From an uncultured Clostridium sp. (GTDB lineage Bacteria > Bacillota > Clostridia > TANB77 > CAG-508), in contig CANEMG010000009.1 in NCBI GenBank assembly GCA_947428535.1, positions 1 to 12,358 of the forward strand: a DNA stretch of 12,358 nucleotides, read 5' to 3'. Positions 136 through 12,340 of this stretch are shown one piece after another. The notes under the pieces are model-generated. The model was not told the DNA's origin, did not search any database, and was given only the letters and a program-made list of their open reading frames with translations. The translations under genes and the position numbers were made by a program. Position 1 is the stretch's first letter, and every line of letters begins with the position of its first letter.

Positions 136-537
136 TTATTCGACTCCAATTCCATCGGGTTGATCATAAGATTGATCATTTTGTATGGAAGTATTTAAAG
201 TCTCAATATAATTATAAGTTTGTAGCCCACAAAAAGGACTTTCAAATACCAGTTTTGCCCAAGAAGGCAGGGTAAATTGCTTATCGAGGTTTTCAAGACA
301 AGTCACATCTTTAAGATATGTACTTGTGTTATGAACATAATATTCATCTTTTCTGTCAGGTACTGGTACTATTTCCAAGTTGATTGAAACCTTATCCGGA
401 TCATTTTTTAAACACCGTTCCTGCTGTGCTTTAAAACATTCAGCTTGTCTGTATGTAAAAGCAGGAAGTCCTTGTAAATACTGAGCAGGATAGATTTCAT
501 CTTTTTGTATAATTCTTGTAAAACTACTTTTTAACAT
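136..537 (-). CDS. Unrecognised 133-aa protein (orphan gene)
   Basis: I do not recognise this protein. It is 133 residues long, with no signal peptide, membrane segment or repeat. It contains four cysteines spread through the chain, a Tyr-Tyr-Val-His stretch near residue 67, and an acidic, polar tail rich in Asp, Gln and Asn, suggesting a soluble cytoplasmic protein. The start is supported by a GGAAGG Shine-Dalgarno site at 545-550 and by a strong promoter just upstream (574-602). It is followed by a hairpin terminator at 54-81, so it looks like a self-contained single-gene unit rather than part of an operon with the pyrophosphatase-like gene upstream. My base count gives about 33% G+C, higher than the roughly 25% of the adjacent genes, which hints at a different origin. 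Protein-coding status is inferred from the promoter, ribosome-binding site and terminator arrangement. Confidence 0.7.
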   Translation of the reverse strand: MLKSSFTRIIQKDEIYPAQYLQGLPAFTYRQAECFKAQQERCLKNDPDKVSINLEIVPVPDRKDEYYVHNTSTYLKDVTCLENLDKQFTLPSWAKLVFESPFCGLQTYNYIETLNTSIQNDQSYDQPDGIGVE

Positions 538-634: not shown

Positions 635-979
635 TTATCTTATAATTATACTGTCAAAAAATTTTTCTATAAAATCTGTTAAATTACGTATTTCTATATC
701 AGTAAACTTTTTACTTTCTGGTGCTATAATTAATTTATCATCATTATCATTAATCCTGTGAATAATTGCTATACATTTCCCTGTAAAAAAATTTAAAGGT
801 TCATCTATTCCTAGGATATAACAATCTAATTCTTTTCCATCTCCACTTATAGTATTTGGAACATATCCATAGTTTATTGGATATATTGTATCCGGATATT
901 TATCAGAATGCTTGCTTCCAATAGGTCTATCGATTTTTACAGTTACAATTTTATTAAGGAACTGTTTTGAATCTGTCAT
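635..979 (-). CDS. Short, divergent family I inorganic pyrophosphatase-like protein
   Basis: This 114-aa protein matches the core of family I (soluble) inorganic pyrophosphatases, which hydrolyse PPi to two phosphates in the cytoplasm. Visible signatures are YPINYGY at residues 33-39, the metal-site segment DGKELDCYILG at 47-57, and a second acidic segment (N77-D-N-D-D-K82) followed by LIIAP. By my alignment to the E. coli enzyme, the first and third metal Asp are kept (D47, D52) but the middle one is Lys49, and the chain stops before the C-terminal Tyr-Lys pair of the active site. Typical bacterial enzymes are about 175 aa. From memory, Firmicutes have a group of proteins of about 110-120 aa with this layout, so it is probably intact rather than broken. 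Whether it cleaves PPi or another phosphate compound is open. The start is set by AGGAGA at 987-992. It is transcribed divergently from ccdA. Confidence 0.8.
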   Translation of the reverse strand: MTDSKQFLNKIVTVKIDRPIGSKHSDKYPDTIYPINYGYVPNTISGDGKELDCYILGIDEPLNFFTGKCIAIIHRINDNDDKLIIAPESKKFTDIEIRNLTDFIEKFFDSIIIR

Positions 980-4716: not shown

Positions 4717-5904
4717 ATGATATCAGAAAAAATGAAAAAACTAGTAAAAAATAATTCAGTAATTAGAGAAATGTTTGAAGAAGGAAAAAAATTAGAAAAA
4801 ATATATGGGAAAGAAAATGTATTTGATTTCAGCTTAGGAAATCCTAGTGTTCCAGCGCCCAAAGAAGTAAAAGATGCAATTTTAGAAGTAATAGAAAAAG
4901 AAGATAGTACTTTTGTGCATGGCTATATGAGTAATAGCGGATATGAAGATGTAAGAGAAACTATAGCAAACTCTATAAATAAAAAATATTTAACAAAATT
5001 TAATTATAAAAATATAATTATGACAGTAGGTGCTGCAAGCGGATTAAATATAGTATTAAAATCTATTTTAAATCCACATAATGAGGTAATAGTATTTGCA
5101 CCATATTTTTCTGAATATAATAATTACATACAAAATTATGATGGAGAGGTACAAACAGTATCTCCAAATTTAGAAACGTTTGAGCCCAATTTAAAAGAAT
5201 TTGAAGAAAAGATAAATGAAAATACAAAGGCAGTAATAATAAATACGCCTAATAATCCGACAGGAGTAGTTTATTCAGAAGATACAATTATAAAATTAAC
5301 AGATATAATGAAGAAAAAGGAAAAACAGTACAATACTCAAATATATTTAATATCTGATGAACCATATAGAGAGATAGTATATGATGGAATAGAAGTTCCA
5401 TATGTTACTAAATATTATGATAATACATTTGTAGTATATTCATATAGTAAATCATTATCATTACCAGGAGAGAGAATAGGGTATGTAGTTATTCCAGATG
5501 AATTAAAAGATTCAGAAGAGATGATAGAGGCTGTAACAATTGCAAACAGAATTATAGGATGTGTTAATGCTCCATCTTTAATTCAAAGAGTAATACCATA
5601 TTGTTTAAATTCAACTGTGGATATAGAAGCTTATAACAAAAATAGAAATTTATTGTATAAAATAATCACAGAAAATAAATTTAAATGCATAAAGCCACAA
5701 GGTGCATTTTATTTATTTGTAAAATCTCCAATTAAAGATGAAAAAGAGTTTTGCAATATTGCTAAAAAATATAATTTATTATTTGTTCCAGCAACTTCTT
5801 TTGGATGTTCAGGGTATGTTAGAATAGCCTATTGTGTTTCATATGAAATGATAGAAAAGTCAGAAGAAGCTTTTAAAAAGTTATCTGAGGAAATATATGA
5901 ATAA
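4717..5904 (+). CDS. PLP-dependent class I aminotransferase, possibly aromatic
   Basis: A 395-aa fold-type I aminotransferase of the aspartate/aromatic group. Visible landmarks are LGNPSVPAP near the N-terminus (39-48), NNPTG (179-183; N180 contacts the PLP ring oxygen), SDEPY (213-217; D214 pairs with the PLP nitrogen), SYSKSLSLPGERIG with the Schiff-base lysine K245, and the substrate-carboxylate arginine R369 in GYVRIAY. The full normal length is present with no missing catalytic residue. It follows pheA by 27 bp behind a GAAGGA site, so converting phenylpyruvate to phenylalanine is the natural proposal. That specificity is inferred from the neighbourhood, because sequences of this group also include aspartate and alanine transaminases. 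Confidence 0.92.
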   Translation: MISEKMKKLVKNNSVIREMFEEGKKLEKIYGKENVFDFSLGNPSVPAPKEVKDAILEVIEKEDSTFVHGYMSNSGYEDVRETIANSINKKYLTKFNYKNIIMTVGAASGLNIVLKSILNPHNEVIVFAPYFSEYNNYIQNYDGEVQTVSPNLETFEPNLKEFEEKINENTKAVIINTPNNPTGVVYSEDTIIKLTDIMKKKEKQYNTQIYLISDEPYREIVYDGIEVPYVTKYYDNTFVVYSYSKSLSLPGERIGYVVIPDELKDSEEMIEAVTIANRIIGCVNAPSLIQRVIPYCLNSTVDIEAYNKNRNLLYKIITENKFKCIKPQGAFYLFVKSPIKDEKEFCNIAKKYNLLFVPATSFGCSGYVRIAYCVSYEMIEKSEEAFKKLSEEIYE

Positions 5905-7988: not shown

Positions 7989-8240
7989 TTAACGTTTCAG
8001 TTCAGGCGGGTCTAATTTAGAGCAGACTATCTGACCATCCTCCATAATTTCGACAAGGATTATGAAGCCATCTGTAAGTATGGCGTAAAGCTCCCTCTCG
8101 TAGGGCTTTAATTGATGCACAATCTGTTTGTCAAGCAGTTCATCTGCAGAAAAAAGGAACTTTAGTTGTTCCCAAAGTGCATCACTAATGAGATTTGCCT
8201 TTTCCTCATTCATAGTTTTGTTTTTGGGTGGCCGTACCAT
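7989..8240 (-). CDS. Unrecognised 83-aa protein, higher-GC orphan gene
   Basis: I do not recognise this small protein. It has a basic N-terminus (MVRPPKNK), a predicted helical middle with Trp24 and several Leu, and a probable beta-hairpin (ILTDGFIILVEIMEDGQIV) before a Pro-rich, charged end. There is no signal peptide or membrane span. The gene is well formed: AAGGAGGG ribosome-binding site seven bases before the ATG, strong extended -10 promoter upstream, and a hairpin terminator starting three bases after the stop. My count gives about 41% G+C against roughly 25% for its neighbours, with codons such as GCG, CTC and GGC that are rare elsewhere here. This points to recent acquisition. The compact single-gene cassette layout matches that of the 133-aa gene near the left end. 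Confidence 0.75.
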   Translation of the reverse strand: MVRPPKNKTMNEEKANLISDALWEQLKFLFSADELLDKQIVHQLKPYERELYAILTDGFIILVEIMEDGQIVCSKLDPPELKR

Positions 8241-8455: not shown

Positions 8456-10369
8456 ATGAATTATAGAATAACTAACGGGGCAGTCTCTTATGGAGCTGAA
8501 ACAATATTAGAAGAAATAAATTTTGAAGTAAAAGGGAAGCAAAAAGTAGCAATAGTAGGAAGAAATGGGAGTGGGAAGTCTACACTTTTAAAAGCAATTG
8601 TCGATAATGAGCTTCTATCAGAGGGAATTGGAACTGAAAAATTTAATGTATATAAAGAAGGAAAACCAATTATAGGATATTTAAAACAAATTGATTTTGA
8701 AGATGAAAATATTACTATGTTAGATGAAATTTTAAAAGAATATAAGGAAATAATTGATTTAGAAAAAAAGCTAGAAAATATAGTAATACAAATGCAAACA
8801 GATAAATCAGAAGAACTTGCAAAAGAATATTCTAGATTGCATGATAGATATGAATTTTTAGATGGATATACATATAAAAAAGAATATGAAACAGCCATAA
8901 ACAAATTTGGATTTTCTAAGGAAGATAAAAATAAAAAAATAAGCGAATTTTCAGGAGGACAAAGAACTAAGATAGCATTTATAAAATTATTACTTAGTAA
9001 ACCAGACATATTATTACTAGATGAACCAACAAATCATTTAGATATTACTACTATTGAATGGCTTGAAAGTTATTTAAAAAACTATACAAAAGCAGTAGTT
9101 ATAGTTTCACATGATAGAATGTTTTTAAATAAGATAGTTGATAAAATATATGAAATTGAATATGGAACAATTACAGAATATTCTGGAAATTATGAATTTT
9201 TTGAAAAGCAGAAAAGAATAAATTATGAAAGAACATTAAAAGATTTTGAATTTCAACAAAAAGAAATAAAAAGACTTACAGCAATAGCTGATAGATTTAG
9301 ATATAAACCAACAAAAGCGAAGATGGCACTATCAAAATTAAAACAAGTTGAAAGAATGGTTAAAATAGAAGAACCAAATAAATATGATTTAAAGACATTT
9401 AAAACTAACTTTAGCATTGAAAAAGAAAGTGGAAATAATGTTTTAAATGTAGATAATTTACAAATAGGATATGATAAATTACTATCTACAGTATCATTTA
9501 AATTATATAAATCACAAAGACTTGGAATAATTGGAAGTAATGGAACAGGGAAATCTACATTATTAAAAACAATTGTAGGTAAAGAAAAAGCTTTAGGTGG
9601 AAAGTTTGAATTAGGACATAATGTAGAAATTGGATATTTTGATCAACAAATAGCACAACTAAATTCTAATAAAACAATATTTGATGATTTTTATGAAGAA
9701 TTTCCAAATTTAACAGTAACAGAAATAAGAAATTCATTAGCAGCATTTATGTTTTATGGAGAAGATGTTTTTAAAGAAATAAGTATGTTATCTGGTGGAG
9801 AAAAAGTAAGGCTTGCACTTTGTAAAATATTAAAAAGAAAACCAAATTTACTTATATTAGATGAGACAACTAATCATATGGATATAGTTGGTAAAGAAAG
9901 TTTAGAAAATATGTTATCTGAATATAAAGGAACTCTTATTTTTGTATCACATGATAGATTTTTTGCTAATAAAATAGCAAATTGTATATTAAGTTTTGAA
10001 AATAGGCAAACGAAATTTTATGATTATGGTTATGAATATTATTTAGAAAAAAGAGAAGATGGAGTACTAAAAGATGAAAGAAATCAGAAATGTGAGAAAA
10101 GCAAGAAAACAATTTATAATAATCCATTAAAAGATAAAGATAAACTAGAAAGAAAAATAAAAAAAATTGAAGAAGAAATTTCTAAAAAAGAGGAGGAAGT
10201 TTCTAACTTGCAAAAAGAATTATTAAATGAAGATGTATATTCTGATTATGTGAAAGTTGCTGAATTACAAGAAAAAATTGATAATTTAAATAAAGAGATT
10301 GAAGAAAATATGAATTTATGGGAATTTACTGAGGAAGAAATAGAAAAGATAAACCAAATATTGCATTAA
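8456..10369 (+). CDS. ABC-F family ATPase (ribosome-acting, YdiF-like)
   Basis: A 637-aa soluble protein with two ATP-binding cassettes and no membrane segment, which defines the ABC-F group. These proteins bind near the ribosomal E site and act in translation or antibiotic protection. Cassette 1 has Walker A GRNGSGKS (35-42), signature FSGGQ (165-169), Walker B ILLLDEP (185-191) and switch His219. Cassette 2 has GSNGTGKS (360-367), LSGGEK (445-450), ILDETTNHMD (467-476) and His499. The charged helical linker (about 245-315) is the part that reaches toward P-site tRNA. A C-terminal coiled coil (about 560-620) is rich in Lys and Glu. Both catalytic glutamates (E190, E470) are present. Cassette 2 has Thr in place of the usual Pro after the glutamate. 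The C-terminal arm and size recall Bacillus YdiF, so a housekeeping translation factor is likelier than a resistance determinant, but I cannot exclude the latter. The next gene starts 24 bp downstream. Confidence 0.92.
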   Translation: MNYRITNGAVSYGAETILEEINFEVKGKQKVAIVGRNGSGKSTLLKAIVDNELLSEGIGTEKFNVYKEGKPIIGYLKQIDFEDENITMLDEILKEYKEIIDLEKKLENIVIQMQTDKSEELAKEYSRLHDRYEFLDGYTYKKEYETAINKFGFSKEDKNKKISEFSGGQRTKIAFIKLLLSKPDILLLDEPTNHLDITTIEWLESYLKNYTKAVVIVSHDRMFLNKIVDKIYEIEYGTITEYSGNYEFFEKQKRINYERTLKDFEFQQKEIKRLTAIADRFRYKPTKAKMALSKLKQVERMVKIEEPNKYDLKTFKTNFSIEKESGNNVLNVDNLQIGYDKLLSTVSFKLYKSQRLGIIGSNGTGKSTLLKTIVGKEKALGGKFELGHNVEIGYFDQQIAQLNSNKTIFDDFYEEFPNLTVTEIRNSLAAFMFYGEDVFKEISMLSGGEKVRLALCKILKRKPNLLILDETTNHMDIVGKESLENMLSEYKGTLIFVSHDRFFANKIANCILSFENRQTKFYDYGYEYYLEKREDGVLKDERNQKCEKSKKTIYNNPLKDKDKLERKIKKIEEEISKKEEEVSNLQKELLNEDVYSDYVKVAELQEKIDNLNKEIEENMNLWEFTEEEIEKINQILH

Positions 10370-10393
10370 ATTATATAAAAAGGAGGTGGCAAA

Positions 10394-12340
10394 ATGAAAT
10401 TTTCAGTAGAAAAAGAAACATCTGTAAAAAAGAGAAGCAAAAAAAAGTTAAGAGATTATATGATAGAAAAAGAAAATCTTCATATAGAAGATTTAATAGA
10501 TTATGAGGGATTTTTAAGATTATATAATAATTACGGAAAAGAATTTACAAAAAAGCAATTTGCTGAAATTTTTTTAGATATTAAAGATACAGATTTTAGT
10601 GGATTTAAAGAAGGTACAAATCGTTCAATATTAAAAAAAGAAGAAATAGATCCTATTCAAATAGAATTAATGAAGTTACAGCTTATAAGAAGATTGAAAC
10701 TAAAAAAAGCAGAAGGAAAATTTTATAATGAAATAGAAGAAATATATAATTCTATTTATACTAAATTAAATATAATAACTTTTTCAGAAAAAGTATTAGA
10801 GGTTTTAAGAGATAATCTTTCAAGAATAAAATATGATGGCACTGATAGACAAAAGATTTTTACTAAAACAGATGATATATATTTTTCGGAAAGAAATGAA
10901 GCTGAAATTGAAGAATATATAAAGAAAAATGTAACTGAAAAAGTTGATGCACTTTCTAATTTAAAAGATACTATAGCTATGGATATGAATTTACATATGG
11001 GAGACAAGCTAAAAAGAGATAAGTTTTTAGAATTGTATCAGATTTATGGAGAAGATAATTTTTCACAATTTGATTTTGCAAGAGATGTTTTAGGAATGAC
11101 AGAATCTAGAGCTAAAAAATTAATTGATGGTAAGATATCAGAAGCAAAGGTATGGGGAAATGAGATTTTAAGTTTAGATTATTTATTGAAAATAAGAGAA
11201 GAAACCATATTTGAAGAAAATTTACATATTCAGGATCAAATTAGTTATGAAAAATTTAAAGAACTTTATAAAAGACATTCAGGAATTTTATCTGAAGTTG
11301 ATTTTGCTTCAGAAATATTAGATATAGCAAAAGCTAATATGTATGGATTTAAAAAAGGAAAGAGCGAACGAGTTATACTTACAGATATTAAAATTCCAGA
11401 AGACTTTTTTGAAAAAACTAAACAAATGATTCAAGAAACAGAAGATGTTTATATAGATAAACCTATAACTTATGATGAATTTAAGGATTTTTATAAAAGA
11501 TATGGATTTATAACAAATGAAGTAGAATTTGCTGAACAAGTATTTGAATTAGCCAAAAAGGGCTTTTCAAATTTTCAAGATGGAACAATAAAAACAAAGA
11601 GAATATTTTTGAAAACTAAGAGATTAAATCAAGGGCAAGATACTGAAAATTATAATGCAAAACAGATAGAGAAATTAAGGGAGATTGTAATAAAAGAAAA
11701 CAAGTTGCATATAGAAGATTTTATAACAGGTGAGCAATTTGTAAAAATGTATAATAAGTATGGAAGCGGAATGTCACAGAAAACTTTTGCAAATAAGATT
11801 TTGGATATTTCTGAAGAAAGAATGAAAGATATTGTTAATGATTATGAAAAAAGAAAAGGAAAATCTTCTATTGAGGGTGATGAACTAAGGACTGGTATAT
11901 TGAGAAATGAAAAAGTGACAGATCAGGAAATAGATAGGATAAGGAAAACAGTTTTTGAGAGTGGAGAGCATTATAAAGGAGAGTTAATTGATTATAAAGA
12001 ATTTCAAAGATTGCATAATACATATGGGGAAAAATTATCAGAAAGACAGTTTTCAGAAGATATATTATTTATGGCTGGAAAAAATTTATCTTTTATGAAG
12101 AATAATACTGATATTGGTGGGAAAAGAGCAATATTTAGTGGCTTTGAATTTTCAGATGCATATATAGCTAATTTAAAAGCTAGAGTAATAAAAGAAAATT
12201 TATTATATTTTGAACAAAGAATAAATACTAATTTTTTTGAAAAACTTTACAGACATATTCCAACAATTATGTCAAGACCGCAGTTTGCACAAGATATTTT
12301 AGAAATGAAGGTTAGTCAAACATATGTCACACTCTTTTGA
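10394..12340 (+). CDS. Protein of about eight divergent helix-turn-helix-like repeats, unknown function
   Basis: I cannot match this 648-aa protein to a named family. After a Lys-rich start (residues 1-19) it is built almost wholly of repeats of 74-98 residues. Each has an upstream helix pair (pattern I-x-E-N-x-L-H-I-x-D-x-I-x-Y-x-x-F-x-x-L-Y-x-x-Y-G) and a core F-[AS]-x-x-[IV]-L-x-[IVM] followed by a variable helix that in several units ends in Lys/Asp-x-Gly. The core resembles XRE/Cro helix-turn-helix motifs, most clearly at the last unit (ILEMKVSQTYV). This suggests a nucleic-acid-binding array, which is inference. No catalytic motif, signal peptide or membrane span is seen. Translation has the strongest Shine-Dalgarno in the window (AGGAGGTGG, 10381-10389), 24 bp after the ABC-F stop, so the two are probably co-transcribed. 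The chain stops inside the eighth repeat, right after its predicted recognition helix, with TGA following CTCTTT, so the C-terminus may be shortened. Confidence 0.8.
   Translation: MKFSVEKETSVKKRSKKKLRDYMIEKENLHIEDLIDYEGFLRLYNNYGKEFTKKQFAEIFLDIKDTDFSGFKEGTNRSILKKEEIDPIQIELMKLQLIRRLKLKKAEGKFYNEIEEIYNSIYTKLNIITFSEKVLEVLRDNLSRIKYDGTDRQKIFTKTDDIYFSERNEAEIEEYIKKNVTEKVDALSNLKDTIAMDMNLHMGDKLKRDKFLELYQIYGEDNFSQFDFARDVLGMTESRAKKLIDGKISEAKVWGNEILSLDYLLKIREETIFEENLHIQDQISYEKFKELYKRHSGILSEVDFASEILDIAKANMYGFKKGKSERVILTDIKIPEDFFEKTKQMIQETEDVYIDKPITYDEFKDFYKRYGFITNEVEFAEQVFELAKKGFSNFQDGTIKTKRIFLKTKRLNQGQDTENYNAKQIEKLREIVIKENKLHIEDFITGEQFVKMYNKYGSGMSQKTFANKILDISEERMKDIVNDYEKRKGKSSIEGDELRTGILRNEKVTDQEIDRIRKTVFESGEHYKGELIDYKEFQRLHNTYGEKLSERQFSEDILFMAGKNLSFMKNNTDIGGKRAIFSGFEFSDAYIANLKARVIKENLLYFEQRINTNFFEKLYRHIPTIMSRPQFAQDILEMKVSQTYVTLF
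10448..12337 (+). repeat. Eight protein-level tandem repeats in the 648-aa protein
   Basis: The Phe-Ala/Ser core recurs at residues 56, 130, 228, 304, 379, 465, 553 and 631, i.e. at spacings of 74, 98, 76, 75, 86, 88 and 78. Approximate units are 19-93, 94-160, 190-260, 263-334, 335-410, 420-506, 507-584 and 585-648. Units 1, 4 and 6 are the most alike (LHI-D and ILDI motifs). Unit 2 has lost the first-half motif. Extra residues lie between units 2 and 3 and within units 6 and 7. The DNA copies are not near-identical, so the duplication is old. Confidence 0.75.

Follow-up and report, generated by a model that had tools for sequence, protein, structure and literature searches.

Helix-turn-helix (HTH) domains are among the commonest bacterial DNA-binding folds and are known mostly singly or in dimers. 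Tandem DNA-binding modules are found in the C2H2 zinc-finger arrays, which are encoded by clade-restricted tandem genes and show selection on the residues that contact DNA. In bacteria, TALE and TALE-like proteins (Xanthomonas TALEs, BurrH and MOrTL) are built of tandem repeats that keep a fixed scaffold and vary at localised positions, and a published screen covered repeats of 30-43 residues (PMC5472282). Here we describe an open reading frame (ORF) at positions 10394..12340 of contig CANEMG010000009.1 of an uncultured Clostridium sp., a stretch of 12,358 bases analysed as a whole and called the window below, which encodes an array of eight diverged units of about 75 aa with the predicted features of HTH domains.

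The units resemble XRE/Cro-type HTH domains (Pfam HTH_3, HTH_26 and HTH_17) in helix 2, turn and helix 3, with which they are in register by profile; XRE/Cro-type proteins carry one such domain per chain, whereas the arrays hold 3-13 units, each with flanking strands and a linker helix in addition. With C2H2 arrays such as the KRAB-ZFPs they share clade-restricted tandem genes and apparent selection on contact residues; each C2H2 module carries two Cys and two His zinc ligands, whereas no such set is conserved in the consensus of 321 array units, which have a predicted HTH fold and are bacterial. With the TALE-like proteins they share the principle of a fixed scaffold with localised variable positions; TALE-like repeats are 30-43 aa long and vary at a residue pair, whereas the present units are about 75 aa long, have an HTH profile and vary in helix 3. 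At this length they fall outside the published screen of 30-43-residue repeats.

The array and its relatives

The array ORF and its units, the latter located with a unit hidden Markov model, lie as follows.

10380..10389, forward strand: ribosome-binding-like sequence AAGGAGGTGG, read directly, preceding the ATG of the array ORF
10394..12340, forward strand: array ORF, 648 aa plus stop, ATG start, shorter than its relatives of about 880 aa
10463..10675, forward strand: unit 1
10685..10906, forward strand: unit 2, the most diverged (23.4 bits held out)
10976..11197, forward strand: unit 3
11207..11422, forward strand: unit 4, whose structure was predicted on its own (67 unit rows)
11432..11650, forward strand: unit 5
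11690..11944, forward strand: unit 6
11954..12178, forward strand: unit 7
12188..12337, forward strand: unit 8, with the stop codon within helix 3, 18 bases from the contig end

A held-out test confirmed that the eight diverged units are a real repeat: scored with a profile built from the remaining seven, each reached 23.4-60.6 bits, whereas the best of 1000 shuffled controls per unit came to only 8.2-11.4 bits with the same held-out profiles. An earlier reading of the window from sequence only had described a core, F-[AS]-x-x-[IV]-L-x-[IVM], recurring eight times at a spacing of 74-98 residues. The eight units and the spacing hold, but the exact pattern occurs six times, and eight times only when relaxed to F-[AS]-x-x-[IVF]-[LF]-x-[IVLM] (residues 56, 130, 228, 304, 379, 465, 553 and 631), a motif with a mean of 0.021 and a maximum of 1 occurrence in 2000 shuffled versions of the protein. 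The unit of about 75 aa is longer than that core, adding the preceding helix and a closing strand. The closing Lys/Asp-x-Gly that had also been described is exact in units 1 and 4, directly behind helix 3, and in unit 7, slightly further on, whereas units 2, 3, 5 and 6 follow it loosely, with D-G or K-G directly.

A search with the window protein gave matches in 16 of 96 relatives' genomes, its own included. A full-length profile matched 35 of 287 genomes of the order and 3 of 391 of the class, all of them in the window's own taxonomic family, and in the phylum 1 of 398, which is the window's own. The unit profile matched 1 of 245 genomes of the class, again the window's own, and 44 of 292 genomes, from 19 of 39 genera, of the taxonomic family. 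The genome samples of these searches overlap, and as the searches covered samples of genomes, rare members elsewhere are possible. Four named records carrying relatives are metagenome-assembled genomes of uncultured Clostridium or Clostridia.

The 50 loci examined, the window included (from the full-length profile search of the order and the unit profile search of the taxonomic family a part of the matches was taken, as 20 and 11 stretches), hold 69 ORFs and 403 units. Where a locus has just one array ORF and this ORF stays clear of both ends of its stretch, as is the case at 29 loci, arrays have 3 (2 loci), 4 (2), 5 (2), 6 (7), 7 (7), 8 (6), 9 (1), 12 (1) or 13 (1) units. Close relatives of the window protein have open frames of 884-887 codons, which code for eight units followed by a C-terminal region some 240 aa long. 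The window array ends inside unit 8, whereas relatives continue for about 240 residues; its early end may reflect a genuine stop codon, a shift of frame or the end of the assembly. In several genomes two arrays follow each other head to tail, and locus L161 has three on a 6.1-kb contig (102-5585). This truncation, the C-terminal domain and the family itself are points beyond the sequence-only reading.

Predicted homology to HTH domains and predicted fold

Aligned with 30 HTH_3 domains from the relatives' genomes, the family unit profile reached 79.1% in hhalign (P 1.6e-5), with unit columns 26-53 set against HTH_3 positions 8-34, a span that takes in helix 2, the turn and helix 3. None of 200 column-shuffled unit profiles did as well (best 10.7%), and control alignments of unit profiles with sigma region 2 gave 0.2% and 0.6%. 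The register was kept by subsets of the family: 95.1% for the 13 units of L067, 60.6% for the window and its close relatives (80 units) and 54.4% for L065/L064 (13 units). The hydrophobic core is kept as well, at column 33 in 400 of 400 units, at column 38 in 394 of 394, at column 45 in 384 of 400 and at column 48 in 379 of 399. Thus the proposal that the units are XRE-like stands at the level of the family profile, whereas the window's eight units alone, although in the same register, reached 30.1%, and single units matched no HTH family in Pfam (0 of 63, hand-picked among 110 listed of 152 less-redundant units, plus one from L065).

The window protein likewise scores below every Pfam HTH gathering score. 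Relatives at L067, L161 and L162 pass Pfam HTH cut-offs when the scores of their units are added up; as such sums also lift unrelated families over the cut-off (DUF2624, MCM4_WHD, VHP and EF-hand_1), we base the proposed homology on the hhalign comparison and its shuffles. In NCBIfam, eight relatives gave sub-cut-off matches alone, several of them to sigma factors or HTH antitoxins. For the window protein itself Pfam returned nothing over the cut-off (Annexin_2 at E 0.0099 and PMBR at E 0.14 are both under it), NCBIfam no match and PHROGs one unconvincing match (E 0.68).

AlphaFold models predict the same fold in every unit inspected. In the full-length relative L051 (877 aa, 10-row alignment; mean predicted local distance difference test, pLDDT, 82) all eight units are alike, each with a linker helix, a short strand, three helices and a short strand; the predicted template modelling score (pTM) of 0.44 means that the units are clear and their mutual positions are not. 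Unit 4 of the window modelled alone, from a unit alignment that took in 67 of 70 unit references, has matching topology (pLDDT 84, pTM 0.74), with helix 3 at unit columns 42-49. The sequence-only reading had named, as outcomes that would speak against it, an alpha-solenoid lacking a tri-helical core and a confident match to a known protein-binding repeat family. The models contain a tri-helical core with helix 2, turn and helix 3 in HTH order, and no such family was matched confidently in Pfam, NCBIfam, PHROGs or Foldseek, the last with no E of 0.001 or lower for either the 877-aa model or the single unit. We give little weight to the structure-search matches, which for the unit are weak and mixed (DNA-binding HTH proteins, homeodomain proteins, EF-hands and further proteins); Foldseek ranks first, at E 1.3, a putative Nitrosomonas DNA-binding protein, and the top Z, 3.8, belongs to a dystrophin-complex chain. 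Taken together, profiles and models support the reading of the units as HTH-like modules. The expectation that this architecture belongs to no described family also held: none matched in Pfam, NCBIfam or PHROGs, and a tandem HTH array of this kind was not found in the open literature searched, a body that leaves most subscription papers and all preprints outside.

Diversification of helix 3 and its possible meaning

In regular arrays the scaffold is near-identical across units, and much change falls within and after helix 3. Pooled over four array groups, the non-synonymous difference per column is 0.53 at column 43, 0.56 at column 46 and 0.48 at column 47; it is 0.47 at column 54, 0.43 at column 31, up to 0.38 in the linker and 0.00-0.21 in helix 1 (columns 14-26). 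We take columns 42, 43, 46 and 47 in the XRE register to be the equivalents of 434-repressor residues 28, 29, 32 and 33, on the DNA-facing side of helix 3. These contact columns were set from the XRE register and the 434-repressor contacts after the first five arrays had been viewed; hence the six later arrays alone test columns fixed beforehand.

We compared the proportion of non-synonymous differences (pN) at the contact columns with the proportion of synonymous differences (pS) over the unit. For the five arrays viewed first, which had been chosen by eye for their regularity, contact pN/pS was 1.99, 1.86, 0.78, 0.95 and 1.26, against 0.44-0.64 at other columns, with permutation p of 0.0047, 0 of 20000, 0.13, 0.043 and 0.0043; these values, like those that follow, are pooled over non-independent unit pairs, uncorrected and not tree-based, and the permutations take columns 3-60 as exchangeable. 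For Fisher combination of this first set the p of 0 of 20000 was taken as 1/20000. The six later arrays are those judged regular, with at least 4 units, among eleven fetched loci (L164, L168, L169, L170 and L171 were left out). In these, contact pN/pS was 1.66, 1.28, 1.61, 2.53, 1.20 and 1.10, against 0.59, 0.47, 0.65, 0.58, 0.21 and 0.62 at other columns in matching order; permutation p was 0.016, 0.0037, 0.017, 0.0070, 0.0016 and 0.085, five of the six below 0.05 (Fisher-combined p 1.5e-7). Contact pN exceeds unit pS in 9 of the 11 arrays, and the buried neighbour columns 45 and 48 lie below the contact columns in all 11. The diversification is thus localised, and in most young arrays the contact residues of the predicted helix 3 change, as judged from these comparisons, faster than the synonymous rate. 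The sequence-only reading had expected the recognition-helix residues to be the most variable among homologues, which is what the recent arrays of relatives display.

It had also held that helix-3 residues differ completely from unit to unit while the scaffold is kept, and here too the data agree. In a set of 11 proteins whose eight units are equivalent, identity at the contact columns is 36.0% for units of equal position and 7.1% for units of different position, the latter close to the 7.6% expected from composition alone; helix 1 is 62% and 34% identical, respectively. The mean charge per unit is +2.8 for helix 3 and the following strand, and -1.5 for helix 2. Arrays seem to evolve by moving whole modules, as L161 has pairs of near-identical units that share their helix 3 yet belong to different arrays (by eye, array 1 unit 4 with array 2 unit 1, and array 2 unit 6 with array 3 unit 1).

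We consider it probable that the array ORF encodes a modular, sequence-specific DNA-binding protein of an undescribed family, diversified by selection and equipped with a C-terminal partner domain. Each unit of about 75 aa would be a small HTH domain between short strands, joined by a helix to the next unit. Helix 3 would serve as the recognition helix and lie in the major groove; the linker helix would take the chain on to the next groove, so that an array would span tens of base pairs and its units would read consecutive stretches of one long DNA site. New specificities would arise by unit duplication and exchange and by selection acting on those residues of helix 3 that face DNA, and the C-terminal domain, TPR-like or faintly sigma region 2-like depending on the subfamily, would relay binding to a partner.

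Several observations would also suit other readings. The repeats are all-helical, with a possibly TPR-like C-terminal region, surface diversification would be equally expected for protein partners, and the unit fold gives weak matches to DNA-binding proteins; all this would suit a protein-binding scaffold whose exposed helical faces bind varied partners, with the variation of helix 3 following them. We regard such a scaffold as unlikely, since the HTH_3 profile match is in register, variation falls on the XRE DNA-facing positions and not on the whole surface, as the low values of helix 1 show, and helix 3 with its strand is positively charged. That positive face and the modular variation would suit any nucleic acid, and as the computed results do not separate DNA from RNA, the units might read single-stranded or structured RNA instead; the closest relatives found by profile being HTH families that bind DNA, we think this quite improbable.

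Further points to be weighed are the broken arrays of several relatives, the presence of the family in only 44 of the 292 genomes of the taxonomic family, and the fast evolution of the contact columns among related proteins too. They would be expected of decaying, loosely constrained repeats that drift after duplication and whose freest part is helix 3. Drift alone, however, yields a ratio of about 1 at most, and the contact columns exceed unit pS in most arrays while the rest stay at 0.21-0.65; the lower values of the buried columns 45 and 48 in every array also speak against decay, which we judge very improbable. As for calcium-binding repeats of the EF-hand kind, the ligand set of the 12-residue loop was found in 0 of 367 scorable units and this explanation is almost certainly wrong.

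For the DNA-binding array that we favour, the output may be regulatory or silencing, perhaps directed against mobile elements. Zinc-finger arrays have a history of chasing mobile elements, and the clade restriction, tandem duplication, broken copies and contact-residue selection of the present family resemble them, an analogy that points to silencing of mobile DNA; a role as an ordinary regulator is roughly equally likely. More tentatively, and as a possibility to which we give slightly less than even weight, the arrays may be bacterial counterparts of TALE and KRAB-zinc-finger arrays made from HTH modules, each unit reading one short word of a site of tens of base pairs, with conflict with mobile DNA rewriting the recognition helices through contact selection and unit exchange. 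If so, they would embody a recognition code for HTH modules that arose in nature, would provide a new DNA-binding scaffold that can be programmed, and would stand alongside zinc fingers and TALEs as one more natural class of modular DNA reader. With up to 13 HTH modules per chain and selected recognition helices, they would record the evolution of HTH specificity, and the code would be directly testable in L161, L162, L065 and L067, where near-identical scaffolds carry differing helices 3.

C-terminal domains, broken copies and neighbouring genes

The C-terminal region of the window's subfamily may be TPR-like. RNPP regulators such as ComR join HTH to TPR; they have one HTH, whereas there are eight here, and the structural likeness has a Z in the range common for helical bundles. 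A second type of C-terminal domain, with an LWIGK-like motif, is found at L048, L056, L057, L058, L061, L062, L064, L066, L068, L072, L161, L162, L165, L166 and L171. Against region 2 of ECF-like sigma factors it reached 44.8% in hhalign (best of 100 shuffles 1.2%), against primary sigmas 0.3%, and it has no sigma match in Pfam or among solved structures. This faint likeness to ECF-type sigma factors concerns the C-terminal domain of the other subfamily, not of the window's.

Frame changes or an in-frame stop break the arrays at L031, L035, L040, L041, L042, L046 and L057. Phase variation through long A-runs was considered and is unsupported: 4 of 8 broken-array junctions have A-runs of 6-7 in the stretch inspected, and arrays hold about 5 runs of 6-7 per kb anyway. 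L064 and L065 have closely similar units and both reach contig ends of one genome (G308); they may be parts of one gene broken by assembly. Two scans of viral contigs for a phage origin found no relative. The window protein matched no anti-phage model, and weak matches (E 0.002-0.006) appeared in 2 of 7 other arrays scanned.

The window is an entire AT-rich contig from a draft genome (273 contigs, 74% complete), and its remaining genes look ordinary: a pyrophosphatase, a CcdA-like protein, thioredoxin, a DAO-Rieske flavoprotein, prephenate dehydratase, an RsmF-like methyltransferase, a radical SAM protein and a two-domain ABC ATPase, which we take to be of the ABC-F type. Further details are as follows.

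136-537, minus strand: small ORF without Pfam match
635-979, minus strand: pyrophosphatase-like ORF; the Pfam match stops at position 114 of 153, possibly a shortened gene
4717-5904: aminotransferase-like ORF, named by eye, outside the Pfam scan of neighbour ORFs
7989-8240, minus strand: small ORF without Pfam match

Comparison of the relatives' neighbourhoods revealed no conserved partner gene for the arrays beyond local synteny. The array ORF is the last gene of the window and starts 24 bases past the ABC-F ORF (region 8456-12340). At L031-L035 the array likewise lies directly downstream of an ABC ATPase gene, and at other loci the neighbours differ. As the array directly follows this gene in the window and at L031-L035, the two may there share a transcript.
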